Positions 14,835 to 48,066 of a DNA stretch of 63,577 bases are shown here, piece after piece (position 1 is the first letter of the stretch; the number at the start of each line of letters is the position of its first letter). The stretch is taken from contig PSPG01000009.1 of the NCBI GenBank assembly GCA_003193925.1, positions 1 through 63,577 on the forward strand, read 5' to 3'. The notes beneath the pieces were generated by a model. It made no database searches. It worked only from the letters and a program-made list of their open reading frames with translations, and was not told the origin of the DNA. This stretch comes from Candidatus Thalassarchaeum betae. GTDB taxonomy: Archaea; Thermoplasmatota; Poseidoniia; Poseidoniales; Thalassarchaeaceae. A program made the translations under genes and the position numbers.

Positions 14835-16490
14835 TTGGACCCCATGGTTGTCGACTTCGGGTGGCTGATTGGCTCCTACCTGATTGGCATCATGCTGGGT
14901 TGCCTGACCGGGCTGATTCCCGGCTTCCACGTGAACAACGTGGCTCTGATCGCTCTGAGCCTCTCTCCGGTGGCCGTAGCCGTAGGGGTCCCGTTGGACG
15001 CGGTCGCTGGCATCATCGTGGCCTGCGGCACCGTCCACACATTCCTCAACTACATCCCGAGCGCCCTGATCGGCGCGCCGGATGACAACATGGCGCTCGC
15101 TCTCCTGCCCGGACACAGGATGCTGATCTCCGGGCAGGCCGCGCAAGGAGTGGCTTACTCCGCGCGAGGCTCGCAGATGGGCATGCTGATGTCAATACCG
15201 CTGCTCATCGTCGCAAGGCTGCTGTTCGGAGAGGATCCCGGGCTCGGGCTGTACGAGTCGAGTCGTGACGTCCTGCCTTGGCTGCTGCTCATCATCTCGA
15301 TATTCCTTATCATGACCGAGACGACTAGGCTGCCTTGGCCCGACTGGGCGCAGAGGCTGACCGGGAAACTGGTGATTCCGCTGCCGCGGAAGATCGAGTT
15401 CAACATACCCGTTGGAAAACTCAACATCCACCGCAGGTGGGAGAATCTGGACCTGAGGCTCGGCTCCAGCTCAAGGACCGCGGGCATGCTGGCGGCGACG
15501 TTCTTCTTCCTTCTGACCGGGTTCTACGGCTGGGCTGTGTTCGAGTTGCCCGGCCGCTCTCCAATCGGCATGCCCTCGGCCACCCTGCTGTTCCCCGGGC
15601 TGGTGGGCCTGTTCGGATTAGCGAACCTGATCGACATCTACGTCACCACCTCGGAGATTCCCCCTCAGGAGGCGAACTGGGAGATGCCCCCGATGAAGCC
15701 CCTCGCAATACCCACCTTCCTATCGGCGGTCGTCTCGTCCGTGATGGCCATCCTGCCGGGGATGACCGCCGCCCAAGCCACCGTGGTGGTGATGAGCATG
15801 CGCAACTTATGGGGTCGCCTGACCGACCCTGACTACATCCCGGCTGACTTCGAGCATGGGATGGAGCCGGGCTTCGTGCCGTACGCCTCCCCCTTGGACC
15901 TCGACGACCTCGACGAGCTCTCTGACGAGGAACGAGAGATCTTCGGCGAGGCACTGACCGAGGCGGGGGTGAGCCCAGACCTCGACCTGGGTGCGCAGAG
16001 CCAGCAGCAGGACCTCGAGGTCATCGCCGTGCTGTCCTCGGTGAACACCGCTGTCACAGTCATGGTCCTCGGGTTCCTGTACATGGTCGGCAGGCCTCGC
16101 TCGGGTGCCGCACTGGCTCTCAACATGATGTACCCGATAGACATGTGGAACACCGTCGAGCCGCCGGCTGACTTCATCCGCCTGCTCGGCATCACGATCG
16201 CCTCGGGGCTGTTCGCAGTCCCCGTGATGATCAAGGTCGGCAAGGCGATGCTCAGGATGCACGAGATCGTCCCGCTGAGGACAGTGGTGATCTCGGTCAC
16301 CGGATTCATCTCGATACTCGTCTGGCTATCCACCGGATGGATAGGATTGGGGGTTCTGATCATCGGCACTGGGATGGGTCTGATGCCACCCCGTATAGGC
16401 ATCAGGCGCAGCCACGCGATGGGCATCATCCTAGTCCCAATCATGATTTACACCTTCGCTCGAGAATTCGACGCATTCGGCTTCATTTGA
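14835..16490 (+). CDS. TctA-family (PF01970-like) membrane permease
   Basis: 551 residues with many membrane segments. The N-terminal GCLTGLIPGFHVNN loop and the following CGTVHTFLNYIPSALIGAPDD match the archaeal TctA-type permeases (tripartite tricarboxylate transporter large subunit homologues); a second related half has LPGMTAAQATVV. Bacterial homologues work with a small membrane protein (TctB) and an extracytoplasmic binding protein (TctC); neither is recognised here, so the substrate is unknown. An acidic loop of about 70 residues (near 335-395) makes it longer than usual. The TTG at 14835 is preceded by GAGGTGATC; an ATG at 14844 is an alternative. It is coupled to the upstream exported OB-like protein. 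Confidence 0.85.
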   Translation: MDPMVVDFGWLIGSYLIGIMLGCLTGLIPGFHVNNVALIALSLSPVAVAVGVPLDAVAGIIVACGTVHTFLNYIPSALIGAPDDNMALALLPGHRMLISGQAAQGVAYSARGSQMGMLMSIPLLIVARLLFGEDPGLGLYESSRDVLPWLLLIISIFLIMTETTRLPWPDWAQRLTGKLVIPLPRKIEFNIPVGKLNIHRRWENLDLRLGSSSRTAGMLAATFFFLLTGFYGWAVFELPGRSPIGMPSATLLFPGLVGLFGLANLIDIYVTTSEIPPQEANWEMPPMKPLAIPTFLSAVVSSVMAILPGMTAAQATVVVMSMRNLWGRLTDPDYIPADFEHGMEPGFVPYASPLDLDDLDELSDEEREIFGEALTEAGVSPDLDLGAQSQQQDLEVIAVLSSVNTAVTVMVLGFLYMVGRPRSGAALALNMMYPIDMWNTVEPPADFIRLLGITIASGLFAVPVMIKVGKAMLRMHEIVPLRTVVISVTGFISILVWLSTGWIGLGVLIIGTGMGLMPPRIGIRRSHAMGIILVPIMIYTFAREFDAFGFI

Positions 16491-16577: not shown

Positions 16578-19343
16578 ATGAACCGCAACAAATCGATAGC
16601 ATTGATGCTCACAGGAATAATACTGGTCAGCCTGAACATGTTTATCTTGACCGGAGTCGTGTCAAGTAATGTCCAAGCCGGCGTCGAGGACCTGATTGTC
16701 GACGGGAGGGACGAGGCTTCTGATTGGGAGGACGAAGAGTGGCTCGTCCAGACCAGCGAGAGAGTCTACTTCGCCTACAACTTGACGAATCAGGATGCTA
16801 GCCTCAACGATGAAATCGCCGTGTTTGAGAAGGTGGGACCGTTCATCTACGCCGTCACGACGACCAAGGAGATTCTTGACTTCGACGCTGACGCGGGCAC
16901 GATCACATACTCCGAGTACGACTCATTCGAATGGTGCGAAAACTGCACATGGACGGATGATGACGGCAACGAACACGCATCGGTCTCGGGTGAGACCAAC
17001 CTGACCAACGCCAACATCCTGTGGAACACCCAGAGGATGGCCGGATTAGCAACTGCAATCACCTACGGCGAGATCTTCGCCAAGGCCGGCTTCGCCCAGC
17101 AGATGCAGATCAACGACCTGCAGAACAGGGCGCCCAGCATCTGGGCCGCCGAGTACGCAGAGACGCTGATTGCAGGTGCTGCTGCGCAGATTAACTCAAC
17201 GGGCATCGACATGCCCACTGCTGAAGCGATGGCCCCGGCGGCCGTGCTCAGGGGGGCCTACGACGGCTGGCTCGCCCAGAGCGGTGCGAGTGACGCCAAC
17301 CCCGACTTCGCCAGTTACGCCGACGTCATACTGTACAGCGCCGTCGACCCGTCTACGGGATCCTGCATAGCCCTGATAGGTGACTCCGCCTGCAAGGATG
17401 GCAGTACGTCACTCCATCCAGACCACGGTATCGGCCATATGCTGGTGGCAGGGATGGGTGAGCCGAGCGAGGCCACGACGCCGGTACGAGCGGCCCTGTA
17501 CGGATACTCCGGTGCGAGTGCTGAGGAAATGGCTGCGATTGACTGGGCCGTCTACGCCATGGCCGGCACCAACTTCGTCATGATGGGCGGTGGGGAAGAC
17601 CTTGACTCGATTGACGATTGGCGAGAGCGCCTGGTTGAGGTCAGCGGGGTCGACATCGCGAACCCCGTCGCCTTGAACAACGTGCTCTTCGGCACTGAGG
17701 AGTCCAATGAAATCGGGCAGATTTCCGACGGGATGCTCTCGGAGAGCGACTTCCAAGGAATCCCGCTCTTCGGCGTAGCCCTGTTCCTTCTGGGCGCTCA
17801 GGGGGATGCGTTCAGCACGATGGTGTCGTACAGTATCGGGCTGACCCAACTGCTCGGCCTGGCCGACTGGGGAGGCGAATGGATCGGCATGCTCGGCACA
17901 CCTCGTGAATTCCCGATGATCCTCGTGGGGGGATCAGGTGCAATGGACGCCGACCAGTGGTGGATGATCTCGTTCTGCGGCGTGGAGCCCCTTGCGGGAG
18001 GTTACCTCTCCATCGGCCTCAACAGGGGCGACTACGAGGGTACTGTGGACCTGCCCCCCGAGAAGTGCCTCGAGATAGAATACACCTCGGACTATGCCCT
18101 GACCGGCGACTTCGCCACCGAGTTCATCTACGCCGAGTTCTCTGGAGTGACGCTTCCGAGGGGTTCCGAAGGACCCGAGATGGGGGGTGTCGAGTCGGTG
18201 TGGGACGATGCCTATGTCGCAGGCCTCTACGGCATCTCGGAGAGCGAGGCCTCCGCCCTCAGGAGTTGGGTCAAGGACCTCATGTTCGAGCAGGTGATCG
18301 GAGCGCTGCTGGCCTTCCAGTACGGTGCCTCGGCCTGGACCACCCAGTCAATCAACAACTGGCTGTACGGCTGGAGCGACTCGGTTCTGACTGGACTCTA
18401 CGGGGAGGAAAACAGCTGGGTCAAACTTGAGACCAACGAGACCTACTACGGTTCAGGCGGCAAGAGCACCGGCGACTTCTCGGTCTATGTGATGAGTATT
18501 CCTTCGAGTGCGGATGACTTGGGAACCGCCGACCACGCCCTCATGCAGGGCTACATCAACTCTGACGGAGACGGGCTGTGCGACTTCAAGCTCGACGCTG
18601 ACGGCAACGCCGAGTACGCAGTCGAGTGCGAGGCCAACGAGACCTACGGCATGACGGAGCACCTACCGTGGAGAGCCCCCCACAACGAAAAGAGAGTGTA
18701 TGGCCTGCTCTCAGACCATGTAGGGAATTCCAACACCGAGATCACTGGAACCATAGGAGGCATCGCAAATGCGGATGAGCCATTCAGCGTCAATCTAGTT
18801 GGGTACGCCATTGCACAGACCGAGGTCGGAGATACGGTGACCTACAAGGGAATCGAGATGGTCGAGCATCACATCGAGTTGGACCCTGCTGAGAACCAAA
18901 TCCAAGCCAAGCTGATTGGATTTAATCTTGGTCATGTCGCGGTGCTACCCGGCGCTCTGCCGATCTACTTCGGCTCGACTGTCGACATCAAGGTGGAGCC
19001 GGTGACCAACGTCGCCATGTACGGCAAGTCGGTATCTACGTTCTACCTCGACCTCAGATGGGCGGGTGCGATGAACCCGGACTTCAGCGCGTCCTATGTC
19101 CAGCCTGTATTCGAGATCCACACCCTCAGCGAGATCGGTGATGATGATGCTGCCTCGTTCAAGTGCACCGTCATAGACCACATGGGCACTATGTGGTGGA
19201 CCGACTTCGGTGGCGAAGGCGACTGCGAGCTCGAGGCCCTGACAACCTTCTCCTACATCGCTGCGGCGCTCTATGTCGCCGGCATCGGCCTGCTCGCCTA
19301 CGGCGGGATGGGGATTGCTGCGGCCTCTAGAAAGATAGAGTAG
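16578..19343 (+). CDS. CD36/SR-B/LIMP-2-like surface protein
   Basis: 921 residues with the topology of the CD36 scavenger receptor family: an N-terminal membrane helix (about 7-30), a large exterior domain and a C-terminal helix (about 885-910) with a very short tail. The start of the exterior domain reads YFAYNLTNQ (65-72), then FEKVGPF (83-89) and TITYSEYDSF (108-117), matching the family's order FNLTN...VEEVGPY...VSYxE. Near the end, VDIKVEPVT (about 802-810), a Pro-Val strand and SEIGDD mirror the family's LDIEPVTG...P...W...GTIGD. CD36 proteins bind and move lipids in eukaryotes; a lipid role here is inference. It is about twice the size of human CD36 owing to insertions. ATG 16578 is preferred over GTG 16569. 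It is monocistronic, with a hairpin downstream. Confidence 0.75.
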   Translation: MNRNKSIALMLTGIILVSLNMFILTGVVSSNVQAGVEDLIVDGRDEASDWEDEEWLVQTSERVYFAYNLTNQDASLNDEIAVFEKVGPFIYAVTTTKEILDFDADAGTITYSEYDSFEWCENCTWTDDDGNEHASVSGETNLTNANILWNTQRMAGLATAITYGEIFAKAGFAQQMQINDLQNRAPSIWAAEYAETLIAGAAAQINSTGIDMPTAEAMAPAAVLRGAYDGWLAQSGASDANPDFASYADVILYSAVDPSTGSCIALIGDSACKDGSTSLHPDHGIGHMLVAGMGEPSEATTPVRAALYGYSGASAEEMAAIDWAVYAMAGTNFVMMGGGEDLDSIDDWRERLVEVSGVDIANPVALNNVLFGTEESNEIGQISDGMLSESDFQGIPLFGVALFLLGAQGDAFSTMVSYSIGLTQLLGLADWGGEWIGMLGTPREFPMILVGGSGAMDADQWWMISFCGVEPLAGGYLSIGLNRGDYEGTVDLPPEKCLEIEYTSDYALTGDFATEFIYAEFSGVTLPRGSEGPEMGGVESVWDDAYVAGLYGISESEASALRSWVKDLMFEQVIGALLAFQYGASAWTTQSINNWLYGWSDSVLTGLYGEENSWVKLETNETYYGSGGKSTGDFSVYVMSIPSSADDLGTADHALMQGYINSDGDGLCDFKLDADGNAEYAVECEANETYGMTEHLPWRAPHNEKRVYGLLSDHVGNSNTEITGTIGGIANADEPFSVNLVGYAIAQTEVGDTVTYKGIEMVEHHIELDPAENQIQAKLIGFNLGHVAVLPGALPIYFGSTVDIKVEPVTNVAMYGKSVSTFYLDLRWAGAMNPDFSASYVQPVFEIHTLSEIGDDDAASFKCTVIDHMGTMWWTDFGGEGDCELEALTTFSYIAAALYVAGIGLLAYGGMGIAAASRKIE

Positions 19344-19440: not shown

Positions 19441-22400
19441 ATGAGTGGTCGCTCTAGACGGGCCGCAGCGGCCCTCTCACTGGCCATCCTGGTGCTGACG
19501 TCGCTGTCGCCGGTTCTGATTGACGGGCTGAGCGAGACGACCCCTTCGAAAGACTCCTCCAGCCGCTCCACGGCCTGCTCGGCAGTCTGCATCAACGAGA
19601 TGATGCCGAACGCAGACGGCCTGGACCAAGGCGTGTTCCCGAACGGCGAGTGGGTCGAGCTATACAACTCCGGCTCGGTCGATGTCAGCTTGGAGAACTG
19701 GACTCTCGAGGACGTCGGAGGCTGGATACACCCCCTCGACTCTGGAACCTGGGTCGGCTTCGACCAGCTCACAGCGCCATACGTCCTGAGCGCAGGGACC
19801 TACGCTGTGATCGCCGAGAACGAGTTCGGCACCCTGCGCCTGAACAATGCCGGCGAGACCCTCCACCTGAAGAACGCCGGCGGCGGATTGGTGCACACAG
19901 TGACTTCCGGCGAGGCCTCTAACGGGGTCTCGAAGATACCGAATCCGTCCGATGCGACAGCAGACTGGATAGACTCGGAGGAGAACACCCCGGGAGCGGA
20001 GAACTCCGAGGCGACCGGTGGCGGTGAGGAGGGTTCGACGCCGATCTCGCTGACTCGGATCATGACCATGCCCTTCGATGCCGAGGTCACCGGCATGTAC
20101 GTCGATGCGAATGGCAACTTCTTCGTCAACGCGATGCATCCCGATGACAGCTACATGGATGCGACAGTTGGCGTCGTCAAGAGCGTCGACTGGAACAACC
20201 TGCCCGACAGCATCCCCGAACTGGCGCTTCCGGCGGACATAGCCGAGAGGACGAGCATCAGGCTCTCCTACGGCCAGTACCAGCACCTCATCCAGAATGG
20301 CGATGCGCTGTCCGAGGGCGGAGTTGCGGGAGGCATCTACTCCGCGGACGACGGGGAACTGCTCTTCGTCAGCGAGAGGCCGGACTTCAACGCCTTCGTC
20401 CCACTCAACCCCCAAGGCACCAGAGGCTATCTGTACACCACCTGGGAGGACCGCCCGGCCGGAATCAGCCAGATTCTGATCGAGTGGAACAGCGCGGCGA
20501 GCAGCTGGGACGTGCTCGGTGGGATGATGCGGGACCTCAGCGCGGTAAACGGCGGCTGGGTGCTGTGCTTCGGGACGATGAGCCCGTGGGGCACGCCGCT
20601 CGCCTCCGAGGAGCTGTACTTCGACGACACTGAGGACTGGAACGACCCGACTTACAGTTACCATTCAGATCAGGTGGAACTGGAGGACTACCTCGGTTAC
20701 TACCCCAACCCCTACGACTATGGCTACATCGTCGAGATCGAGAACCCAGCCACAGCCTCAGGCGACCTCGTCAAACACATGGCCATGGGTCGCTTCTCGC
20801 ACGAGAACGCGCAGGTGATGCCTGACGAGAGGACAGTCTACCTCTCTGACGACGGTTATGACACGGTGCTGTTCAAGTTCGTCGCAGAAACCGCAGGCGA
20901 CCTCAGTGCGGGTACGCTGTACGCTGCCAAAGTCACGCAGGACGACAGCGGCGACTCAGCCATCACCGGATTCGACGTCGAGTGGGTGATGCTCGCCTCA
21001 TCCTCCAATTCGGTCATAGGGACATGGGTTGACCAGTATGACGGTATTGCCGTCTCTGACTATGTCAATGGTCAGAACTCGTACATCACCGACTCCGAAA
21101 TCAACGACTGGGCCGAGGGGCGCTTGAACGATGACCTCGACGGTGATGGCACCATCGAGTCTGCCGCCGATAATAGGGTCGCCTTCCTAGAGTCGCGCAA
21201 GGCGGCCGCGGCCATCGGAGCAAGTGACGAGTGGAACAAAATGGAGGGGATCGTCTTCAATCCGAACGCGCCCGGCTACCTGTACCTCGCGATTTCGGAC
21301 GTTCGCTATGACATGAGCGACGGGCACGGTGACATCGACGTCTCGGAGAACCGCTGTGGCATCGTCTACAGGATGCCGGTCGGGGCGGGCTGGGACGTCA
21401 GTAGGATCGAGCCCGCAATAGTTGGCGGATCATACTCGAGCGGAGCCTCGCCCGACCAGTGCGATGCGAACAACATCGCCGGCCCGGACAACCTCGCCGT
21501 GCTCGACGACGGGCGGGTGCTCGTCGGAGAGGACACCGGCAAGCACCAGAACAACATGGTATGGCTGTGGAAGCCGCCGGTCGAGCCGGTCGAGTGGGAC
21601 GGCGAGTACACGCTGAAGTTCACTCGAATCATGCCAGCCGAGGTCCCGGACAGGGACAACGACTGGCTCGAGATCGCCAACACCGGTGACTCGCCGGTCA
21701 GCCTCGCTGGCTGGACCATAGAGCGAATCCGCTCGACCGAGCCGTGGGTCTCCATGGTCAACGACCTGAGCATCGATGCCGGCACCTCGGTGGTCCTGAC
21801 TGAGAACCCAGCCAATCTGCTCGCCGACGGAGGCATCGTGGCGCTCGACGGCAACGTCGCGCTGAACAACATGCCGTGGCTTGTTGACTCGGGCAGCGCG
21901 CTACAACTCAAGGCGCCCGACGGAACGGTGGTCGATGCCATCGCCTTTGGGGGCGGCATCGCCGAAATCGACGGCTGGACGGGACCCGCGATCTCGGTGC
22001 CGGGCGATGGCTCACCGGGGCTCATCCTGATGCGCGGCTCGGGCTGCGGGGACTACCCTGACACCGACTCGGGCGCTGACTGGGAGGAGAGGTGGATTCG
22101 AATCGGGGCCTCGACCTTCTGCGACGGCGGGCACTTCACCACCGAGGCCGATTCGACTGCATCCGCCTCAATAGGCCCCGACACGGCCTTCAACGACCTG
22201 ATACAGTGGGTCGGCTCCGCTGAGGACTCGATCCACCTGCACGTCTACCAGTTCATGAGCCCGGACCTCACTCACGCCCTGCTGGACGCGATAGACAGCG
22301 GCGTGAGCGTCACCCTGTTGCTGGAGGAGGGCATCTTGGACGGTAGCAGCACCGTGAACAACCAGAGGGGCCATGCCCAGAGCCTCCACGACGCGGGAGC

Positions 22401-24021
22401 GACAGTGCTCTGGATGGAGGACCCCACCCTGATTAGCTCGCCCTACGCCTACATCCACAGCAAAGTGGCGGTCAGAGACGCCGAGAGCGTCTGGATATCA
22501 TCCGGCAACTGGAAGGACACGAGTGTGCCGCCCGACGCGGTGGGCAACCGCGAGTGGTCGATCATTCTGAACTCCGAGACTGCAGCCCAGCTAGTCCTGT
22601 CCCGGATGGCCTGGGACGAGAACCCCAACCACCTCCACATCAAGCCTCACGGCTCGCAGCACGCGCCGACCTTCGACTGGACCTTGGACGGGCCGGTGCA
22701 CGACGGCAGCACGACTGCGACGCCTTCCCACCAAGGACCGTTCAACGCCCAGCTGATGACCTGCCCGGACGACTGCGTAGACGGTATAGTCGCCATGATC
22801 GGCTCCGCCGACACCTCCATCGAGCTCTCGGTGCAGTACCTCGACCTCGACTGGTACTGGGGCTTCGGGGACAATCCGATCATCACCGCGCTGCACGAAG
22901 CGGCGCGTCGAGGCGTCAGCATCCGGCTGATGCTCAACGGCTACTACGCCGAGTGGGATGATGAGATCCGCGACACCATACACATGTTCAACACCGACTG
23001 GAACGCCACCGAGGGGCTGGATGCGACAGCGCGTCTGATGGCGTACTCGGACAGTATCGTGAAACTGCACAACAAGGGTGCGGTCATAGACGGTGAGAGT
23101 GTCCTCGTCGGCAGCATGAACTGGGGCTCGAGCGCGGCCCTGAGGAACCGGGAGATGGGCGTGCTGATCCACCACGAGGAACTGGCCTCCGACTACCTAA
23201 CCTCCTTCGAGGAGGACTGGAACCGCCTCGATCCGACCACCGACTCGGACGGCGACCTGATGCCCGACTGGTGGGAAGAGCAGTACGGGCTGAACCGGCA
23301 CTCAGCTGCCGTGCTGGGCACGGCACTCAGCGAGCAGTCTCTGGACCCTGACGGGGACGGGCTCGACAACCTGCAGGAATACCAGCTAGGTGGTGACCCA
23401 ATGAACAACGACACCGACGGCGACTGCATCACAGACGGCGAGGAGGTGGCATTCGCGCAGAGCGTGATGCGCTCGCCGTCGATTGCGATGACCTCGACAG
23501 ACGTAGACGAGAACGGCGTGCCTGACGGCGAGCAGTACGGCTGCAAGCCTGTCGACAACGGCACAGACGGGGTTGACGACGGCGTAGACGGCGGCGTAGA
23601 GGATGACGGCGATAGCGATGACGACGACGGAGGATTGCTCAATATCAGAGAGGACCCGCTGTCCCGGCCAGGTGCGACATTCCTGTTCTGGGTGATGGTG
23701 ATATCGGCGATCTGCCTAGCCCTAGCCGGAGCCTCGATGTTCCTACAGCCACGAAGGAGCACTGACGAGGTGCTTGTGGACGACTCGGGATACAGGTTCG
23801 ACGACCCCGAGGCCTCCAAGGCGATTCTCAAGGGGACCAGTTTCGACGAAGACGCCGAGGACGCCCGCGCTCGCACGAAGGGTCGCGACGACGGCTCGCA
23901 CGGAGCCATCAGGCTCGATGGCTTCGGCTTCGAATCGACAACGCGCGACGAGGTCCAGTGGATGCTGGACCAGGGGCGCACGATGGAAGAAGTGAGAGCC
24001 GAGCTCGGAGAGGAGGAGTGA
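19441..24021 (+). CDS. Multidomain surface phosphatase/phospholipase: LTD-PhoX-LTD-PLD-PLD-TSP3-TM
   Basis: 1526 residues. Order: signal peptide; lamin-tail domain (about 50-190, INEMMPNADG...EWVELYN); a PhoX-type alkaline phosphatase domain (about 200-712) with GTMSPWGTPLASEE (378-391), FSHENA (452-457), WNKMEGI (598-604) and GPDNLAV...GEDTG (681-700); a second lamin-tail domain (about 723-870); two phospholipase D HKD motifs, HSK-x4-D (His1006, Lys1008, Asp1013) and HNK-x4-D (His1210, Lys1212, Asp1217); TSP3-like calcium repeats (1267-1370); a membrane helix (about 1411-1436) and a 90-residue cytoplasmic tail. PhoX releases phosphate from organic esters; PLD enzymes cut phosphodiesters in lipids or nucleic acids. 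Together this suggests cell-surface phosphorus acquisition. Its stop overlaps the deoA start (TGATG), implying coupled translation. Domain calls are by motif, and activity is inferred. Confidence 0.88.
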   Translation: MSGRSRRAAAALSLAILVLTSLSPVLIDGLSETTPSKDSSSRSTACSAVCINEMMPNADGLDQGVFPNGEWVELYNSGSVDVSLENWTLEDVGGWIHPLDSGTWVGFDQLTAPYVLSAGTYAVIAENEFGTLRLNNAGETLHLKNAGGGLVHTVTSGEASNGVSKIPNPSDATADWIDSEENTPGAENSEATGGGEEGSTPISLTRIMTMPFDAEVTGMYVDANGNFFVNAMHPDDSYMDATVGVVKSVDWNNLPDSIPELALPADIAERTSIRLSYGQYQHLIQNGDALSEGGVAGGIYSADDGELLFVSERPDFNAFVPLNPQGTRGYLYTTWEDRPAGISQILIEWNSAASSWDVLGGMMRDLSAVNGGWVLCFGTMSPWGTPLASEELYFDDTEDWNDPTYSYHSDQVELEDYLGYYPNPYDYGYIVEIENPATASGDLVKHMAMGRFSHENAQVMPDERTVYLSDDGYDTVLFKFVAETAGDLSAGTLYAAKVTQDDSGDSAITGFDVEWVMLASSSNSVIGTWVDQYDGIAVSDYVNGQNSYITDSEINDWAEGRLNDDLDGDGTIESAADNRVAFLESRKAAAAIGASDEWNKMEGIVFNPNAPGYLYLAISDVRYDMSDGHGDIDVSENRCGIVYRMPVGAGWDVSRIEPAIVGGSYSSGASPDQCDANNIAGPDNLAVLDDGRVLVGEDTGKHQNNMVWLWKPPVEPVEWDGEYTLKFTRIMPAEVPDRDNDWLEIANTGDSPVSLAGWTIERIRSTEPWVSMVNDLSIDAGTSVVLTENPANLLADGGIVALDGNVALNNMPWLVDSGSALQLKAPDGTVVDAIAFGGGIAEIDGWTGPAISVPGDGSPGLILMRGSGCGDYPDTDSGADWEERWIRIGASTFCDGGHFTTEADSTASASIGPDTAFNDLIQWVGSAEDSIHLHVYQFMSPDLTHALLDAIDSGVSVTLLLEEGILDGSSTVNNQRGHAQSLHDAGATVLWMEDPTLISSPYAYIHSKVAVRDAESVWISSGNWKDTSVPPDAVGNREWSIILNSETAAQLVLSRMAWDENPNHLHIKPHGSQHAPTFDWTLDGPVHDGSTTATPSHQGPFNAQLMTCPDDCVDGIVAMIGSADTSIELSVQYLDLDWYWGFGDNPIITALHEAARRGVSIRLMLNGYYAEWDDEIRDTIHMFNTDWNATEGLDATARLMAYSDSIVKLHNKGAVIDGESVLVGSMNWGSSAALRNREMGVLIHHEELASDYLTSFEEDWNRLDPTTDSDGDLMPDWWEEQYGLNRHSAAVLGTALSEQSLDPDGDGLDNLQEYQLGGDPMNNDTDGDCITDGEEVAFAQSVMRSPSIAMTSTDVDENGVPDGEQYGCKPVDNGTDGVDDGVDGGVEDDGDSDDDDGGLLNIREDPLSRPGATFLFWVMVISAICLALAGASMFLQPRRSTDEVLVDDSGYRFDDPEASKAILKGTSFDEDAEDARARTKGRDDGSHGAIRLDGFGFESTTRDEVQWMLDQGRTMEEVRAELGEEE

Positions 24022-25298
24022 TGTCCAAGGCCATCCACGACCTCGTGCGGGGGGTCGTGGACGGCTCCCTCTCCGATGACGAAGTAATCCACTGGCTGCG
24101 TGCCGTCTTTGAGGGCGGGCTCTCCGAGGGAGATACGATTGCCCTCACTGAGGCGATGAGAGACTCCGGTGAGGTCCTCGAGTGGGGGTCTGAGATTGCG
24201 AATCTGGTCGTCGACAAGCACTCGACTGGCGGCGTCGGCGACAAGGTGTCGATAGTGCTCGCGCCCGCTCTGGCCGCCTGCGGCCTGAGGGTCCCTATGA
24301 TCTCAGGGCGCGGACTGGGCCACACCGGGGGCACTCTGGACAAGTTGGGGAGCATCCCGGGGCTCAGTGTTGAGCGCTCGGCCGATGAGATACGTCAGCA
24401 GGTCGAGCGTCTCGGGGTCGCGATGGTCGGCCAGACGGACGCTCTGGTCCCCGCCGACCGCAGGATGTACGCTCTCAGGGATGTCACAGGCACTTTGGCA
24501 TCCATCCCGCTGATTACCTCGTCAATCGTCTCGAAAAAGGCTGCTGAGGGCCTGTCGGCCCTGATATTGGATGTCAAGTTCGGAAGAGCTGCGTTCATGG
24601 TCGAACGCGCCGACGCGGCCGAACTCGCGCGCTCTATGGTTGACGTGGCCAACGGCATGGGGGTATCGACCAAGGCGGTGCTGACCACGATGGATCAGCC
24701 CCTGGGCTGCGCGGTCGGAAACTCGCTGGAGGTGCTCGAGAGCGTCGAGACCCTGTGCGGTAACGGGCCGGAGGACCTCGAGGAACTGGTCTGCGTACAG
24801 GGAGGCCTCCTGCTGGAGGCCGCGGGGCTGGCGGACGGCATGCAGACCGGCGCCCTGATGATCCACGACAGCCTGCAGGACGGCTCGGCCCTCGAGTGCT
24901 TCCGTAAGATGGTAGAGGCGCAGGGCGGTGATGCCTCGATCCTCGAGAGCGATGCCTCGCTGATGAGGGGGCTCGGGCTGATGGATCCCGATCTGCTGAC
25001 CACCGAGCTGTGCGCGGGCGCCGATGGTTGGGTCGAGGACATCGATGCGATGGTGATAGCCGAGGCCTGCCTCGGTATGGGGGCTGGGCGCAAGGAACTG
25101 GGTGACGAGATCGACCGTGCGGTCGGTGCGATACTCGAGGTCCAGGTGGGAGACCGCCTCGAAGAGGGCGAGCCCTGGGTCGTCCTGTATCACCGCGATG
25201 AGGTAGCCCCGCAGACGCTGGAGGTCCTCTTGGGCGCAATCACCCTATCCGATGAAGAAGTGAAGCCGGTATCACGAATCGCGGAGATGATTGAATGA
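24021..25298 (+). CDS. deoA: Thymidine/pyrimidine-nucleoside phosphorylase
   Basis: 425 residues. It splits thymidine or other pyrimidine nucleosides with phosphate into base and (deoxy)ribose-1-phosphate, in the cytoplasm. The phosphate/nucleoside signature KHSTGGVGDKVS is at 66-77, followed by ISGRGLGHTGGTLDKL, the ALRDVTG segment with its substrate-binding Arg, SSIVSKKAAEG with Ser/Lys, and LGCAVGNSLEV. The length and the absence of an extra N-terminal domain fit the bacterial-type enzyme rather than the longer archaeal AMP phosphorylase. Start ATG 24021 shares its A with the stop of the PhoX-PLD gene; its own stop overlaps the next start (ATGA). The context suggests salvage of nucleosides released by the surface phosphatase/phosphodiesterase. 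Confidence 0.92.
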   Translation: MSKAIHDLVRGVVDGSLSDDEVIHWLRAVFEGGLSEGDTIALTEAMRDSGEVLEWGSEIANLVVDKHSTGGVGDKVSIVLAPALAACGLRVPMISGRGLGHTGGTLDKLGSIPGLSVERSADEIRQQVERLGVAMVGQTDALVPADRRMYALRDVTGTLASIPLITSSIVSKKAAEGLSALILDVKFGRAAFMVERADAAELARSMVDVANGMGVSTKAVLTTMDQPLGCAVGNSLEVLESVETLCGNGPEDLEELVCVQGGLLLEAAGLADGMQTGALMIHDSLQDGSALECFRKMVEAQGGDASILESDASLMRGLGLMDPDLLTTELCAGADGWVEDIDAMVIAEACLGMGAGRKELGDEIDRAVGAILEVQVGDRLEEGEPWVVLYHRDEVAPQTLEVLLGAITLSDEEVKPVSRIAEMIE

Positions 25299-26365
25299 GG
25301 CTGAGGCACATCGACCGCATGCGGGCCATAGCCGTGCTGTGCATGGTCGAGGTCCACACTGCCGCGATCGTACCCCCGGAGGGAGTCACTGTGGGCCATC
25401 CCGCCGCCTTCGTCGCCGCCGCCATCGGCGGCATGGCCGCGCCGATGTTCATCGCCATCTCAGGCTGGGGGATCCACCTGAGCGCTACCCGCAGGGCAGC
25501 AGACCCCGAGCATGATGCGAACCGCTGGATTAGCTGGCTGCTGCCGCGAGTGCTCCTCCTGGGTCTGTGCCAACTGCTGGTCAACCTGCTACTAAACGCT
25601 GACCGAGGCGGCCGCTTCGAATGGCACACGCCAGGTGTGCTGACGCTGCTCGCCATCGCCGCCCTGCTGGCGCCGGCCCTGGTCCGGCTCTCCATGCGGA
25701 CGCGCGCTGCGCTGATGCTGCTGATGGTGGCAGCCCCGCTGGCAATCGGAGATGCCTCCGGGCCCGACTGGTCATGGTGGGAGAGAGTCGACTCACAGGG
25801 CGCCTCTGAGTGGCTGGCCCGACTCCTGTGGAACGGCACTTACCCGGCTGTGCCCTGGTTGGGCTACGTCCTGCTCGGCTCCATAATACACGACTTGGGC
25901 GAGCGGCCGGGGGTGCGAGAGAGGAACATCGCCATCGGGCTGGCTGCTACCACGGTCACCGTGTTCATCGCCGTCCTCGAGGACATAGACTGGGCGCTGA
26001 CCTCAGGGGACGCGGTCCTGACCTTCTTCCCCGCAAACACACCCTTCCTAATCGTCTCGGGGACATTCGTGCTGCTCGCACACAGACTGCTCGAGGGGGC
26101 TGAGTCGAGCGGTGGCGAGCCGGCCTTAGGCGACAGTCTGGCCGCTCTGGAGCCGGCAGGCCGGATCACGCTGACGATCTACGTCGCCCACTTCGCTGTG
26201 CTGGGGGCGGTGGCATCGCTGATGGAGGGTGAGGCAAGGCTCAATCTGGTCCCCGCATTCGCTCTGACCATCGCCCACACGCTGGTATGGATACCGCTGG
26301 CTGTCTGGCACCAGCGCCACATCCCTAACCTGTCATTCGAGGCGCTGTTGAGCAGAATCAACTAG
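25295..26365 (+). CDS. Polytopic membrane acyltransferase-like protein (DUF1624/acyltransferase-3 type)
   Basis: 356 residues with about ten hydrophobic segments. The N-terminus RLRHIDRMRAIAVLCMVEVH has the Asp-x-x-Arg-x-x-Ala...His pattern of membrane acyltransferases (acyltransferase 3 and heparan-alpha-glucosaminide acetyltransferase/DUF1624 families), followed by APMFIAISGWGIHL, typical of the second segment. These families O- or N-acylate sugars across membranes; the substrate here is unknown. ATGA overlap with deoA places it third in a coupled operon with the PhoX-PLD surface protein. Its 3' end overlaps the convergent M60 peptidase gene by 8 nt. A DUF418-type protein is the main alternative. 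Confidence 0.7.
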   Translation: MRLRHIDRMRAIAVLCMVEVHTAAIVPPEGVTVGHPAAFVAAAIGGMAAPMFIAISGWGIHLSATRRAADPEHDANRWISWLLPRVLLLGLCQLLVNLLLNADRGGRFEWHTPGVLTLLAIAALLAPALVRLSMRTRAALMLLMVAAPLAIGDASGPDWSWWERVDSQGASEWLARLLWNGTYPAVPWLGYVLLGSIIHDLGERPGVRERNIAIGLAATTVTVFIAVLEDIDWALTSGDAVLTFFPANTPFLIVSGTFVLLAHRLLEGAESSGGEPALGDSLAALEPAGRITLTIYVAHFAVLGAVASLMEGEARLNLVPAFALTIAHTLVWIPLAVWHQRHIPNLSFEALLSRIN

Positions 26366-29300
26366 GGTCCACGGCAATCGGGCCGAACCAGACCTCGACT
26401 TCCTCGTTCGAGGCCATGATGCGCACGTAGTGCGTGCCGTCGCCGGTGAAGGTGATGTTGGCCGAGCCCGGACCGACCTCGGGCGTACCCACCGAGATGC
26501 TGTACGGCCAGAGTTGGCTGTTATTACCCATGTCAGTCTGTCCGTAGTACACCATCAGGCTCGTGTTTGTGCCATTGTCGTAGACATCCCAGACTATCTG
26601 CGCTGCGCTGCTGGTGACGTTGGTCGAGGTTAGGTTGCGCAGTATGGCATCGTAGACGAAGAAGTCGCCGCGCAGCGGGTCGTCGACCCACACGGGCAAG
26701 TGGTCGAGGGCGTCGTAGGTCGCCTGCGTCAGCGGGAAACCCCATGCTGCGTGGTAGGGTGCGAGGTTGTAGCCGGTGGCGTTCGATAGATGCATGACCC
26801 ACGCGTTGAACTCCTCGACGTCCCCCCTCGGAACCTCGGCCGAAGGAAGCGTGTAGTAGACCGTCAATGCCTCGGTTATCGGACCCCAACCCCACTCCTC
26901 CTTCACAATGAGGAACGTGTCCAAGGCCACCCAGGTGGACCAGTTCGATATGTTCGAGCCGTCCTCGAAATATGCCCGTTGGGGGTTCGCTGGGCGCAGA
27001 TTTGGCGGATTGACGAGTTGCTCCATCAAGTAGACGCTGGCGAAGTTGCAACCGGTCTCCGTGGTTCCAGGCAGGGTGGAAGGCATCCACTGGTGGTTGT
27101 GACCGAGTTCATGGAACATACCCCAATCGCCGTTCTCGCTCATGTACGAGACGTTGACTACTCCCGCGACACTCAGGTCGTGCGCCATGAACGGGTAGCC
27201 GGAATGCATCCAGCCTGCGGAGATCTGAGCGTCGAAGACTGCCCTCTCGACCCTCGGCCATGGTGTGTAGCCGTAAATCTCGTGCTCCATCGCAAGCGCT
27301 TGGTCCCACCAGTCCATCAGGTCTTGGGGGTTGTCGAGATCCCTGATCTCGTGACTCGGCACAGTCAGGATGAACTGGCCGCTGCCGATCTCAGCCCACG
27401 GGGCTGGGTCGTGCCGGAACTGCTGCTGCCACTGGAATATGTCGGTCTCGCCGTGGATGTACCTCGGTGCCTTGACCGCGTTCGAGATGGTCACATCGAA
27501 GTCGCCCAGCGTCGAGCCGGCTTGGATTCCGAGGTATATCGGCCCGCCGAAGGCGTTGCCGACCTCCATCGTGGCGCTGTCGACGTACCACCAACGGGCA
27601 ATCTGCGGGTGCCTGTGTAACTGGCTCTTCCCCCACAGGCTGTCACTGTGGGCGCCGACCAGCACATAGGTTCCCGAGCCGACGATTCCGGGGGGCAGGG
27701 TCACGGTGACCACCTCGCCCGGTGCTGCGTACAGACCGGTGGTCATGCGCACGTGCGAGCGTGCGCCCGAGTAGCCGAAGTTACTGGGTAGGCCGCTCTG
27801 ATTGCCGTCGATGGAGAAGGTGCGGGTGATTCGCGTGGCGTTCGTCGGCACCTCACCTGGGAACTCAACGTGGCTCGGGTGTGCAGGCAGCTCGTTTGCC
27901 GGGAGGTTCTGAGTCAGAGAGGCCTCGACCCTCAGTATGGTGTCGGCCACCGGGTCCTCCCCTAGGTTGTGGCCGACGTTCTGCCAGAGGGTGCCGTACT
28001 GGATCACCGTCCAGCCGGTGGCGTTGACGACCTCGCGCAGAGGGACCCAGAAGCCGTGGAAGTCCAGAGCCACGACGCCAGTGCAGATAGAGAGGGTGGC
28101 GTCGGCAATGGCCGCGTCGGCCACCGATAGGGTCTGATTGTCGATGCGGTCCGCACGAATCGCCTCGATGGCGGCTTGAGGGCGGGTCAGCTCATGCGGT
28201 ACGACTCTGAAGTCGACGTTGTTGGAGCCCCAGGCGTCGGAGACGAACAGCCCCGTCGTCTTGGCGATCTTGTTGCCCGGGTAGTTGTGGGACACATCGC
28301 TGTTCGAGTAGGACCAGTACCAAGCGTGGCCGCCCATGATCAGGCCACCGCCAGCGAGCATGAAGTCGACGAGGTTCTGGTTGTCGGCATCGTCGTGGCC
28401 GTTCCAGAACTCGTCGAGCAGGCAGTCGATTCCAGATAGGTCGTCAGGGGTGACAGAGAGATGGACCGTATGCCCCTCGCCCTGCAACTCGTCCTCGAAG
28501 TCGTCGTACCCCGCACCGTAGGCCAGACCGACGTTGGCATTCTCGCCGCAGACCCATTCGACTCCCTGTAGCGAGAACGCGGTCTCCTTCGGGCCGGCGC
28601 CATCGACCCAGCTCTCATGGCCGTAGCCCAGCATCTTGCCGCGGCCGACGTGACTGGCTGAGATCACCGGGATGGTATCTCCGTAGCCGCTCTGGGTGAA
28701 GCCCACCGGGAATGCCCACTCGCCTATCGGCAGGATGGGCGAGGGCCAACCGCCCCAATTCGTGTTGCCCATTCCATGACGCAGGTCATCTTGGTCTGCT
28801 GTCAGATCATGCACTGCAATCCACAGGTTGAGTCCGGCCACGCCGCCGGTGTTGTTGGCCCAGATGGTGTACTGGGTCCAGTCGGCGCGCTCGTCAGGCG
28901 TCCCCTCGATGGTGCCGTTGGACAGCAGTGTGAGCCCGGACGGCAAAGGAGGGTCAACTTCCCAAGTCTCGATATCAGGGCCTTCATTGGTTGCGGGGAT
29001 GATGATGCTCTCGTTGGCCTTGAACGCGAACTCCGTGCCTGGCCACGAGATGGCGTCAGGCGGCAGGCTGGTCACCCTGAATTGGACAAGAGTAGAGGTG
29101 GTGCCGCCCGAGTTATTGGCCCAGATCCTGTGATAGGTCCACGGTTGCAAGTAGGTGGCAGACCCACTGATTACACCTGTGGAGAAATTGAACGAGAAGC
29201 CGAATGGGAGAGTCGGGTCGATCTCCCAGTAGTCCGGCGAGCCTCCCTCCCAAGTCGGGCTGATCTCTCCGATGTCGTCGCCCTCCCTGAGGTCGAACTG

Positions 29301-30329
29301 GTAGGGATCATAATGCAGGTCGGTCACTGCTAGATCCCTGACTGCGATGAGGATGGTCGTCGAAAGCGAGCCGCCTGTGTTTTCAGCGGTGATCACGTGC
29401 TCCCTGAGCTGGTGCACCGAGGTCGGGGTGCCGCGGAGGGAGCCGTCCGCCTGATGCAGTTCGACGCCGTCGGGAAGCGTCGGTTCGACCGACCACTCGG
29501 TGACCTCGCCGCCCGAAGTGGCCGGGATGATCTGCACGACCTCGCCGATGGTCCAGTAGAACGGGTGGCCCTCGTAGGACAGGGCGGACGGCGCCTCGTG
29601 CAGGGTGATGATCCGGATCGATACCTCCGCAGAGCCGCCGGTGTTGGATGCCGTCACAGTGTGGTTGGAGTCGTCGAGGACGTCAGCATCACCGGAGATG
29701 GAACCGTCCCCGAGCAGGCTCAGCCCCTCGGGCAGTGGCGGGTCGGCGGACCAGGACTCGGCAGGGCCGCCCAGCACGAGGGGCGCGTTCATCGAGCAGG
29801 GGTTGCCCAAGGAGCAGTGCAGCACGTCGGCGATGTAGTGGATCGAGGTAGGTGCCGGGGCGACCACGGTGATGTCGAGCGTCGCGGAGGTAGAGCCCAT
29901 CGGATTGGCGCCGATGATGGTGTACCTCGTGTCCTGTGACTCTTCGGTGGCTGTGCCCGAGATGACTCCGGAGTCATCCAGCGAGAGGCCGTCTGGAAGA
30001 CGGGGATTTACCATCCAGTCGTGGGGGCCGTCACCTGTGAAGCTCGGTGTCAGAGCCTGCATCTCTATGCCGACTACGAGAAGAACGGAGTCCTCACCGT
30101 AGTCGAGGCCATCGGGACGATGCATCAGTCTGCACACGTCCCCGGTGAAGATCTGTTGAGCGGTGCAGTCATCCTCGGTGATGACGTGGACGTAGCAGTC
30201 AGGGTGCGATGGTTGCTCGACACAGTCAATCTCCTCGGGAGTCTGATTATCGGGTCCTAACAGCCCGAGGCAGCCCGAGCTCAGCATCAGCACCGAGAGC
30301 AGGAGGGCGGCGTTCCTCTTCGGCTGCAC
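26358..30329 (-). CDS. M60-family metallopeptidase lipoprotein with five putative Ig repeats
   Basis: 1323 residues from a GTG at 30329. The signal peptide ends in a lipobox (MLSSGC, Cys20). Five He_PIG-type Ig repeats follow, each with 'LPxGL...GxIxGTxx...Y...AxNTGG' (about residues 95-520). Next comes a region with GYGHESW...GGGLIMGGHAWYW that resembles the class I glutamine-amidotransferase-like domain found beside M60 domains, then the M60 peptidase with GGPIYLGIQ and the zinc motif HELGH (His1073, His1077) and a downstream Glu. M60 enzymes of bacteria attack mucin-like glycoproteins, so a glycoprotein substrate is plausible. The GTG start is chosen because it begins a compact lipoprotein signal and a TATA-like element sits 27 nt upstream; the longer frame from 30434 would overlap glyA. 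Confidence 0.87.
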   Translation of the reverse strand: MQPKRNAALLLSVLMLSSGCLGLLGPDNQTPEEIDCVEQPSHPDCYVHVITEDDCTAQQIFTGDVCRLMHRPDGLDYGEDSVLLVVGIEMQALTPSFTGDGPHDWMVNPRLPDGLSLDDSGVISGTATEESQDTRYTIIGANPMGSTSATLDITVVAPAPTSIHYIADVLHCSLGNPCSMNAPLVLGGPAESWSADPPLPEGLSLLGDGSISGDADVLDDSNHTVTASNTGGSAEVSIRIITLHEAPSALSYEGHPFYWTIGEVVQIIPATSGGEVTEWSVEPTLPDGVELHQADGSLRGTPTSVHQLREHVITAENTGGSLSTTILIAVRDLAVTDLHYDPYQFDLREGDDIGEISPTWEGGSPDYWEIDPTLPFGFSFNFSTGVISGSATYLQPWTYHRIWANNSGGTTSTLVQFRVTSLPPDAISWPGTEFAFKANESIIIPATNEGPDIETWEVDPPLPSGLTLLSNGTIEGTPDERADWTQYTIWANNTGGVAGLNLWIAVHDLTADQDDLRHGMGNTNWGGWPSPILPIGEWAFPVGFTQSGYGDTIPVISASHVGRGKMLGYGHESWVDGAGPKETAFSLQGVEWVCGENANVGLAYGAGYDDFEDELQGEGHTVHLSVTPDDLSGIDCLLDEFWNGHDDADNQNLVDFMLAGGGLIMGGHAWYWSYSNSDVSHNYPGNKIAKTTGLFVSDAWGSNNVDFRVVPHELTRPQAAIEAIRADRIDNQTLSVADAAIADATLSICTGVVALDFHGFWVPLREVVNATGWTVIQYGTLWQNVGHNLGEDPVADTILRVEASLTQNLPANELPAHPSHVEFPGEVPTNATRITRTFSIDGNQSGLPSNFGYSGARSHVRMTTGLYAAPGEVVTVTLPPGIVGSGTYVLVGAHSDSLWGKSQLHRHPQIARWWYVDSATMEVGNAFGGPIYLGIQAGSTLGDFDVTISNAVKAPRYIHGETDIFQWQQQFRHDPAPWAEIGSGQFILTVPSHEIRDLDNPQDLMDWWDQALAMEHEIYGYTPWPRVERAVFDAQISAGWMHSGYPFMAHDLSVAGVVNVSYMSENGDWGMFHELGHNHQWMPSTLPGTTETGCNFASVYLMEQLVNPPNLRPANPQRAYFEDGSNISNWSTWVALDTFLIVKEEWGWGPITEALTVYYTLPSAEVPRGDVEEFNAWVMHLSNATGYNLAPYHAAWGFPLTQATYDALDHLPVWVDDPLRGDFFVYDAILRNLTSTNVTSSAAQIVWDVYDNGTNTSLMVYYGQTDMGNNSQLWPYSISVGTPEVGPGSANITFTGDGTHYVRIMASNEEVEVWFGPIAVDPS

Positions 30330-30350
30330 GAGGACTGTCGGGGGCCCGTC

Positions 30351-30360
30351 GATGAATAAG
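30351..30360 (-). promoter_or_regulatory. TATA-like element for the M60 peptidase gene
   Basis: CTTATTCATC on the minus strand is centred about 27 nt before the GTG at 30329, in the 65-nt gap after glyA. The spacing implies a leaderless mRNA. Confidence 0.5.
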
Positions 30361-30394
30361 TGTGCGGAAGTCGTGCTCCCAAGGGGGAGCACGC

Positions 30395-31675
30395 TCACGC
30401 GAGGCCCGGATAGGCCGGTCCTGTCTCGAAGCAATACTGCACAGTATGGAACTCGGCCTTGAAGCCGGCGACGTCTCCTCGGATGGCTGCCGGGTCCTCT
30501 CCGGTGATCAGAGCCCTCGCGAAGAAGCGGGCCACGTCCTGCATCTCGTCGGTTCCCATACCGACTCGAGTGAGCTCGGGCACGCCCAGTCTGAGGCCGC
30601 TCGGCGACATCGCCTTGGTGTCCCCGGGAAGCATGTTCATGTTGGTGATGATACCAGCCTCCTCGAGCAGGGCGGCGGCGTCCCTCCCTGCCCCTGAGTC
30701 GCTCTCTCCATGGCGAGTCAGTACCTGGTGACTGGCAGTGTAGTCGCGCTCCTCAGCGAGTACGTCGAAGCCCTCGGCGGCAAGAGCGGTTCCCAGCGCC
30801 TTGGCGTTTGCCACGATGTCGCGGGCATAGTCGGTGCCGAACTCCTCGAACTCCGCCAGAGCGACCGCCTTACCGGCCACGTGGTGCAGGTGGTAGGAAG
30901 AGCAGACTCCGGGAAAGATCGCGCTGTTCAGGCGACGCTGGAACTTGGCATCGTCAGAGTCCGAGAGGAGGAAGCCTCCCTGAGGCCCGGGGAAGGTCTT
31001 GTGGCTGCTCCCGGTCATCACGTCGGCGCCCTCGCGGAGAGGGTCCTGAAACTGGTTACCGGCAATCAGCCCGAGGACGTGCGCGGCGTCGTACATCACC
31101 TTCGCGCCGACCTCGTGGGCGGCGGCGGCGAGCTCCTCGAGAGGAGTTGGGAACAAGAAGACCGACTGGCCGAACAGGGCGATGTTTGGCTCGGTCTCAC
31201 GAATCAGCTCGGCGGCAGCGTCGATGTCGGGCTCCATGCGGCTCTCTACCCAAGGATAGGTCACGAGGCTCAGGCCCCTCAGTCCGACGGCTCCCATGCG
31301 CGCGTGCGAGATGTGACCGCCGTCGGCCGTCGAGACCGCGGTGATGGTGTCCCCGGGCTTTGCCAGAGCCTTCAGACCGGCCATGTTCGACACCGTGCCC
31401 GAGGTCGACTGGATGTTGGCGAAACTGCAGCCGAAGACGCGCTGGGCGGAGGCAATGCCGATCTCCTCGATGGTGTCGAAGTCGTCGCAACCCTGGTAGT
31501 ACCTCCTGCCCGGGAGGCCCTCGGCGTAACGGCCATGCAGATCAGAGTCACAGGCCTTGCGGACCAGGGGGCTGAGGATGTTCTCGCTAGCGATCATAGG
31601 CAGGCTGTCGCGGTAGTGGCGGCCCGAGTCCTCGACAGCCTCCAATATCCTCGAGGCTTCAGCGCGAGCGCCCAT
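30395..31675 (-). CDS. glyA: Serine hydroxymethyltransferase
   Basis: 426 residues. A PLP enzyme that interconverts serine and glycine while loading or unloading a one-carbon unit on the pterin carrier. Visible are MIASENILS near the N-terminus, the YAEGLPGRRYYQGC segment, the DAAHVLGLIAG motif with the PLP-binding Asp, and the PLP lysine motif TGSSHKTFPGPQGG. The ATG at 31675 follows GCAGGTGC, a good SD, and is preferred over the in-frame start at 31699 (which would add a Cys-rich octapeptide). With gcvPA, gcvPB, gcvT and folD in this window it forms a glycine/one-carbon set, although it is not in the same operon. Identification is firm. Confidence 0.95.
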   Translation of the reverse strand: MGARAEASRILEAVEDSGRHYRDSLPMIASENILSPLVRKACDSDLHGRYAEGLPGRRYYQGCDDFDTIEEIGIASAQRVFGCSFANIQSTSGTVSNMAGLKALAKPGDTITAVSTADGGHISHARMGAVGLRGLSLVTYPWVESRMEPDIDAAAELIRETEPNIALFGQSVFLFPTPLEELAAAAHEVGAKVMYDAAHVLGLIAGNQFQDPLREGADVMTGSSHKTFPGPQGGFLLSDSDDAKFQRRLNSAIFPGVCSSYHLHHVAGKAVALAEFEEFGTDYARDIVANAKALGTALAAEGFDVLAEERDYTASHQVLTRHGESDSGAGRDAAALLEEAGIITNMNMLPGDTKAMSPSGLRLGVPELTRVGMGTDEMQDVARFFARALITGEDPAAIRGDVAGFKAEFHTVQYCFETGPAYPGLA

Positions 31676-46908: not shown

Positions 46909-47982
46909 ATGAACGTACAAGAGAAAGACTTAAATAAGAAAGACTCTACTATACAACTGCGAGTTGAGAAGATGGAACGAGCCACTGCTAGGCAGGCCAG
47001 CGATTCTGAGCGCACTTCCCGGAAGCGAAGCCGCTCTAAGCCGATTCGGCCTGCTCGACGCCCCTCTAGGGAGCGTGGCACAGAGTCCGTGGCAGGCCCG
47101 TGCAAGGTGTGCGGAGCCAATTCATGGGACACCGACGAGATCCGAGGAGAGACCTCGTGCTCCGAGTGCGGCTACGTAGCTGCAGAGAACATGATCGACC
47201 CTGGCGCCGAGTGGATAAACCACTCTGACGGCGATGACCGGAGCCGGGTCGGCGCACCTACCACACTCACACTCTCCGACAAAGGCCTGTCCACCGAGAT
47301 TCGACGCTCCGACCTGACTGCTGGGGCTGCCAGGCGCCACGGCATGAGCGGCAAGGGCCTGCGCGAGTGGAGGCGCCGGCAGCGCATCGATCAGCGCAGC
47401 AAGACCAGGGACAGCAGGAGTCGCAACCTCTCGAAGGCGATGCAGTTCATCCGCGACCGCGGGGACCTACCGTCTCAAATCGAGCAGGAGGCGGCCTCGC
47501 TGTACAGGCACTCTGTCGAGCGCGGCCTCGTCACCGGGCGGAGCATCCGTGGCGTCTCCGCGGCTTGCGTCTACATCGCCGCCAGAGAGGCCAAAATCCC
47601 TCGTAGGATTGAGGACATAGCCGCCGCCTTCGACATGATCAAGCCGGTCGAGGAGAAGGAGCTCAAGCGAACCATCAGACTCGTTGCAAGGATGCTCGGA
47701 ACGCACCACATCACCAGCCCTGACGAGTACTTCGAGAAGTTCCACTCCGACCTCGGCCTCCCGCCTTATGTGCTAGGGGAGGTCAGGGACCTGTGGGACA
47801 TGGTCAAGGACGACCTGTCGTGGCAGGGCAAGAAGCCCTCAGGCATCGCAGGTGTGATTATCTACAAGGCGTCCCAGAGCAGTTCCTCACCGAGAACGCA
47901 GAGCGAGGTCTGCGGGGTCTCTGGCATCAGTGAGGTCACCCTGCGCGGTCTGCTGAAGATACTGAACCAGCTTACAGCGTAG
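46909..47982 (+). CDS. tfb: Transcription initiation factor TFB with extended basic N-terminus
   Basis: 357 residues, the archaeal TFIIB that bridges TBP/TATA and RNA polymerase. The zinc ribbon CxxC...CxxC (CKVCG at 65-69 and CSECG at 84-88) is followed by a B-reader-like region (GAEWINHSD, then LSTEIRRSDL), and two cyclin repeats starting about 170 and 265 (SIRGVSAACVYIAARE; KKPSGIAGVIIYKAS). Normally the ribbon begins within the first few residues; here about 60 basic, Arg/Ser/Lys-rich residues precede it. The ATG at 46909 has SD GGTGA four nt upstream; ATGs at 46867 and 46972 are alternatives, and even the last leaves about 43 residues before the ribbon. Confidence 0.93.
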   Translation: MNVQEKDLNKKDSTIQLRVEKMERATARQASDSERTSRKRSRSKPIRPARRPSRERGTESVAGPCKVCGANSWDTDEIRGETSCSECGYVAAENMIDPGAEWINHSDGDDRSRVGAPTTLTLSDKGLSTEIRRSDLTAGAARRHGMSGKGLREWRRRQRIDQRSKTRDSRSRNLSKAMQFIRDRGDLPSQIEQEAASLYRHSVERGLVTGRSIRGVSAACVYIAAREAKIPRRIEDIAAAFDMIKPVEEKELKRTIRLVARMLGTHHITSPDEYFEKFHSDLGLPPYVLGEVRDLWDMVKDDLSWQGKKPSGIAGVIIYKASQSSSSPRTQSEVCGVSGISEVTLRGLLKILNQLTA

Positions 47983-47992
47983 AGTGAGATGG

Positions 47993-48066
47993 TGGACGCT
48001 GGGGGATTTGAACCCCCGGCCCCCTGGTTGCAAACCAGGTGCTCTTCCAAGCTGAGCTAAGCGCCC
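47993..48066 (-). tRNA. tRNA-Ala (UGC)
   Basis: A 74-nt minus-strand cloverleaf: acceptor GGGCGCT/AGCGTCC with the G3-U70 pair that identifies tRNA-Ala, anticodon stem CCTGG/CCAGG around TTTGCAA (anticodon UGC), and T arm GGGGGTTCAAATCCCCC. CCA is encoded at 47992-47990. No intron. Confidence 0.95.

Follow-up and report, generated by a model that had tools for sequence, protein, structure and literature searches.

The DNA analyzed here, which we call the window, is a stretch of 63,577 nucleotides from Candidatus Thalassarchaeum betae (contig PSPG01000009.1), and its forward strand carries a gene whose product matches the CD36 family (Table 1). Mechanical calling of the open reading frame sets the first codon at a GTG (16569); the start conserved among orthologs is the ATG at 16578, which bears out the start used in the original prediction, and all residues are numbered from it. 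That prediction had recognized, by eye, a series of short CD36-like words, and every one of them is present: NLTN at residues 68-71, VGPF at 86-89 and TITYSEY at 108-114 near the N terminus, and VDIKVEPVT at about 802-810 and EIGDD at 852-856 near the C terminus. The proposed topology also stands, as hydropathy gives exactly two hydrophobic segments, one at each end of the protein. In contrast, the ectodomain is not rich in glycosylation sequons, as had been claimed, with six N-x-S/T sites against 4.7 in shuffled sequences (P=0.32). The protein is strongly acidic, with 34 K/R against 134 D/E residues. Overlooked earlier was an insertion of about 390 residues that splits the CD36 domain and therefore makes the protein twice the usual length. 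Disulfides in the membrane-proximal loops characterize the CD36 family; across 65 archaeal members, Cys684 is present in 54, Cys263 (within the insertion) in 35 and Cys120 in 31, and any equivalence of these to CD36 cysteines is tentative.

Table 1. Features of the CD36-family gene and two of its neighbors, in window coordinates.
Feature	Position	Strand	Details
TctA-family membrane protein, upstream neighbor	14835..16490	+	PF01970 E=5.2e-39; link unproven
CD36-family gene	16578..19343	+	921 aa from ATG, stop included; PF01130 E=3.9e-9, 35.9 bits
N-terminal membrane helix	16590..16673	+	Residues 5-32; Kyte-Doolittle peak 2.29; model helix 3-44
Pfam CD36-matched stretch	16713..16949	+	Residues 46-124 from ATG; N-terminal beta strands with GPFIY
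Membrane-distal apex insertion	17016..18200	+	About residues 147-541; mostly helical; no known family
C-terminal part of CD36 domain	18201..19235	+	Residues 542-886; VDIKVEPVT, PVFEIH, EIGDD; Foldseek and VIA of 536-921 model; hhalign blocks
Hinge motif TQSINNWLYGWSD	18342..18380	+	Residues 589-601; counterpart of TLRELLWGYRDP in CD36
C-terminal membrane helix	19236..19325	+	Residues 887-916; hydropathy; model helix 889-920
Acyl_transf_3 / HGSNAT-like membrane acyltransferase	25295..26365	+	Link unproven

The resemblance to CD36 goes beyond a chance sharing of words. The window protein passes the curated cut-off of PF01130 (26.5 bits), and its relatives match this profile more strongly, with E-values from 1e-11 to 1.6e-20, scores of up to 73.5 bits and, in most, two or three collinear stretches; the best are L067 (1.6e-20), L063 (5.1e-20) and L045 (1.3e-19), with two stretches each, and the 725-residue L081 matches in three (1.3e-16). 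A profile built from 65 full-length archaeal members, with no CD36 sequence included, retrieved CD36 or LIMP-2 as its first eight sequences in the PDB (E 1.6e-6 to 3e-4), the next match being an unrelated ADP-ribosyltransferase at E 0.13. When the profile was cut into segments and scored against the best of 1000 shuffles, the N-terminal segment reached 26.4 bits on LIMP-2 against 4.7 and the hinge segment 14.7 against 5.8; the last third (700-921), taken alone by HMMER, showed no gain over shuffles (6.7 against 9.6 bits).

Profile-profile alignment with hhalign, in which the target alignment consisted of just CD36 plus LIMP-2 and the CD36 sequence had been verified residue by residue against PDB 5lgd, gave three blocks. 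Archaeal profile positions 11-144 align to CD36 alignment positions 14-138 (E 1.4e-7), 543-645 to 153-242 (E 0.0037) and 716-800 to 347-435 (E 0.0068), the second block containing TQSINNWLYGWSD as the counterpart of TLRELLWGYRDP. These blocks are collinear with the canonical order of N-terminal, hinge and C-terminal regions and together span the CD36 domain, and the best value against reversed targets, used as controls, was 0.12. The insertion matched neither CD36 nor LIMP-2, whether by segment profiles or by hhalign. NCBIfam offers no model for the protein.

We also predicted structures with AlphaFold2 without templates, for the whole protein (11 sequences) and for residues 536-921 (12 sequences). 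Model confidence was low (mean pLDDT 49.6 and 44.6, respectively), and for that reason we base no claim of a barrel or tunnel on these models. A Foldseek search with the C-terminal half, modeled at low confidence, placed only the CD36 fold (LIMP-2, CD36 and LmcA) at ranks 1-16 and again at 18, with probabilities of 0.87-1.00, against 0.11 or less for the other folds listed. VIA-align, run with the same low-confidence model, placed the CD36 fold in its top nine entries (Z 5.9-8.3, the next, unrelated entry scoring 4.8), and the whole-protein model, also of low confidence, gave the same ranking more weakly.

Could the resemblance nonetheless reflect convergence, or a profile match by chance? In favor of this, the sequence shares very low identity with CD36, and in the window protein alone Pfam scores no more than about 80 residues. 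Against this stand the three ordered blocks, the relatives in which Pfam matches two or three stretches, and a resemblance in fold that comes from the half of the protein without the main sequence match, as the 536-921 model lacks that region. We therefore regard both convergence and chance as highly improbable. The absence of a CD36 fold, or of a significant CD36 hit, had been named at the outset as evidence that would count against the assignment; we found instead a PF01130 match at E=3.9e-9 and, with low-confidence models, a fold ranking headed by the CD36 fold. The curated profile, the PDB profile search, the profile-profile alignment and the fold comparison all point to CD36/LIMP-2, supporting both the homology and the block order, and the gene product almost certainly belongs to the CD36/SR-B superfamily.

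Homologs, which the original prediction had suggested seeking in Marine Group II, proved to be present across the order. PF01130 matched 101 of 389 genomes in a sample of the phylum, above the curated cut-off in 89; the matches fell in 18 of 155 genera, with none outside the order Poseidoniales, and none of 14 control genomes matched at E 0.001. With the archaeal profile, 187 of the 243 genomes of the class were positive, and among the matches listed all carriers were Poseidoniales (Marine Group II). The gene occurs in nearly every genus of the order, is absent from every genome listed of genera g8 and g16, and is found as one copy in the genome studied here. No relative of the protein was found on viral contigs or plasmids. 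In a quick tree with long branches, two families, f1 and f2, are nearly separate, which is consistent with presence of the gene in the common ancestor of Poseidoniales. Comparison with L032 gave a dN/dS of 0.099/0.638 = 0.16, and the gene is under purifying selection.

Across family f1 the gene keeps its position between the same flanking genes. We rejected contamination or misassembly as its source: the same locus recurs in many independent MAGs and in the single-contig genome G060, and a CDP-archaeol synthase is among the neighbors. The TctA gene adjoins the CD36-family gene in some genera only, as does a gene at 19441-24021 (+) for a secreted protein of 1526 residues that unites a lamin-tail, a PhoX-like and two PLD-like domains, an unusual combination (LTD-PhoX-PLD). 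The acyltransferase, which has a further match to HGSNAT_cat, a family of animal lysosomal enzymes, directly follows CD36 on the downstream side in several f1 genera and is missing at the f2 loci that we examined. Beyond it, at 26358-30434 (-), lies a gene for an M60 peptidase (enhancin/SslE-like) of 1358 residues that carries putative Ig domains and may degrade glycoproteins outside the cell. As candidates for a conserved partner, TctA and the acyltransferase were both rejected, being confined to f1; f2 neighbors are mostly housekeeping genes, and at the loci examined we found no lipid-gene partner conserved across both families.

The insertion, flanked by the N-terminal strands and the hinge motif, is 353-444 residues long in full-length members and about 230-240 in genus g20, and is mostly helical in prediction, with confident helices at 170-370. 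In CD36, basic residues of the apex bind anionic ligands; because the window protein is very acidic, it is unlikely to share this mode of binding. Independent helical expansions, located from motif M4 to motif M6 at the apex that senses ligands, were described in a survey covering 279 SR-B proteins of eukaryotes (PMC10715195), and the site of the archaeal insertion, itself supported by our alignments, agrees with the position of the protist expansions described there. From its position, we infer that the archaeal hinge motif is the counterpart of M6. The SR-B proteins of protists (Dictyostelium LmpA, Phytophthora and Tetrahymena) likewise carry lineage-specific helical expansions between the N-terminal motifs and M6 (PMC10715195); these are reported to be of independent origin, and we compare the archaeal head with them at the level of that published description.

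SR-B proteins are defined by a CD36 domain between two membrane helices (PMC10715195), and the window protein, with a PF01130 domain and two terminal membrane helices, fits this definition. With eukaryotic CD36, SR-B and LIMP-2 (PF01130; PDB 5lgd and 4q4f) it has in common the terminal helices, an N-terminal strand block with GP(Y/F), the hinge motif (LWGY.D / LYGW.D), a C-terminal block before the second helix, and their collinear order. It differs in its helical head of no known family, its strong acidity, a length twice that of animal members, and its occurrence in an archaeal order. The lysosomal sorting signal and beta-glucocerebrosidase binding that mark the LIMP-2 subgroup are specific to eukaryotes and would have no meaning in an archaeon. 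The SR-B family has been traced to the last eukaryotic common ancestor in a text that contains neither "archaea" nor "prokaryot" and names no prokaryote (PMC10715195). Our search of the open-licence literature found no report of an archaeal CD36 protein, and automatic database labels may exist. The archaeal proteins form a widespread and apparently unreported branch of the superfamily, and their apex domain is new. This branch places the family outside eukaryotes, raises the question of lipid capture by these archaea and, as an order-wide family in abundant marine archaea, offers a non-eukaryotic comparison group with which the origin of the family can be tested by trees and structures.

The original statement that CD36 proteins are known from eukaryotes, read as only from eukaryotes, holds for the sequence family as far as the open-licence papers show, but not for the fold, which is present in Actinobacteria as LmcA/PgfA (PMC8972800). 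LmcA (MSMEG_0317) resembles CD36 with DALI Z of 11-12 (PMC8972800); as PgfA, the same protein binds a trehalose monomycolate analog and is assigned to DUF3068, a family said to be confined to actinobacteria (PMC9678360). This protein (PF11271 "PorA"; PDB 7n3v and 7shw) has the CD36-type barrel that the archaeal proteins would share, and ranks high in the archaeal fold searches. At a single C-terminal place, PF11271 gives weak matches to several archaeal members (8.9e-5, 0.0013, 0.0028 and 0.0058, ranging to 0.045), the best scoring 22.4 bits, under the curated cut-off of 29.5; the window protein has no match, and human CD36 has none at E<1. The archaeal proteins are thus sub-threshold on PF11271 yet pass the CD36 cut-off. 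These matches hint that they may lie between the CD36 and DUF3068 families and, because all scores are below the cut-off, this is a hint and not proof. It is possible, if somewhat doubtful, that eukaryotic SR-B arose from a superfamily of lipid barrels in prokaryotes, in which actinobacterial DUF3068 stands to one side and the proteins of Poseidoniales are intermediate, and that the archaeal members are working lipid receptors with a new recognition head. If so, CD36 receptors would not be a eukaryotic invention.

We propose that the protein is anchored in the cytoplasmic membrane at both ends and would present a single large domain, presumably to the outside. This domain would be an asymmetric beta-barrel of the CD36 type, broken at its membrane-distal apex by the helical head. 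The head may recognize a ligand that is hydrophobic or bears lipid (candidates are particles, vesicles, detrital lipid and free fatty acids), and the barrel might hand lipid to the membrane through a tunnel, in uptake rather than export. The lipid would then enter the beta-oxidation carried by these heterotrophs. We consider this account as a whole, a CD36/SR-B member with a helical head that captures lipid, probably the best explanation; for the lipid-capture mechanism taken by itself, we see the case as evenly balanced. Animal CD36 proteins act in fatty-acid uptake and lipid sensing. Since these archaea degrade fatty acids and build their own membranes of ether lipids, fatty-acid capture would be the simplest reading. 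In its favor, Poseidoniales transcribe beta-oxidation genes and degrade fatty acids (PMC9723583), and the actinobacterial fold relative PgfA is itself lipid-binding (PMC9678360). The lipid diet of these uncultured archaea is known from metabolic genes only, and the protein would be a concrete candidate for the capture of lipid.

Acyl-CoA dehydrogenases were found in 36 of 36 genomes tested, CD36 carriers and non-carriers alike. Because genera g8 and g16, which lack the CD36-family gene, retain them, there is no co-occurrence with fatty-acid oxidation and the comparison is uninformative. With dehydrogenases in both groups and no conserved partner gene, genomics does not confirm fatty-acid capture.

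We also weighed two other functions. Like LmcA/PgfA, the protein might be an envelope-lipid trafficking factor that moves lipids or lipoglycans of the cell itself, either outward or inside its surface layer. The weak C-terminal PF11271 matches of several members, which human CD36 lacks, favor this, as does the rank of LmcA beside LIMP-2 in the fold searches; the f1 gene lies near a membrane acyltransferase, and LmcA shares its locus with tmaT, a weak parallel. However, that acyltransferase is missing from f2 loci, every PF11271 score is below the cut-off, with none for the window protein, and CD36 scores are far higher. LmcA, moreover, has no three-helix apex (PMC8972800), the very region that is hugely expanded in the archaeal proteins. 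We consider such a role unlikely.

LIMP-2 binds beta-glucocerebrosidase through its apex helices. Similarly, the archaeal protein might be a receptor for proteins or particles, or an adhesin, its CD36 barrel merely a stalk and no lipid transferred. The head is the part most variable in length, and f1 neighbors include the large secreted LTD-PhoX-PLD and M60 enzymes, both points in favor, but these neighbors are not conserved in f2. Furthermore, the barrel part, which bears the tunnel in homologs, is kept family-wide, and a mere stalk would not need it, making this role quite improbable in our judgment.

Additional copies of the gene were seen elsewhere in the order. In genus g3, two divergent CD36 paralogs adjoin one another in opposite, head-to-head orientation (L100 5428-10664). 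The single-contig genome G060 has a second copy (L066 / L086, G060:C1 about 1135700-1138200) interrupted by a TAA and by a stretch of masked bases, possibly a decaying paralog. Elsewhere in the window, at 47973-48066, ARAGORN gives overlapping tRNA-Gln (+) and tRNA-Ala (-) genes, one of which is probably a false call.
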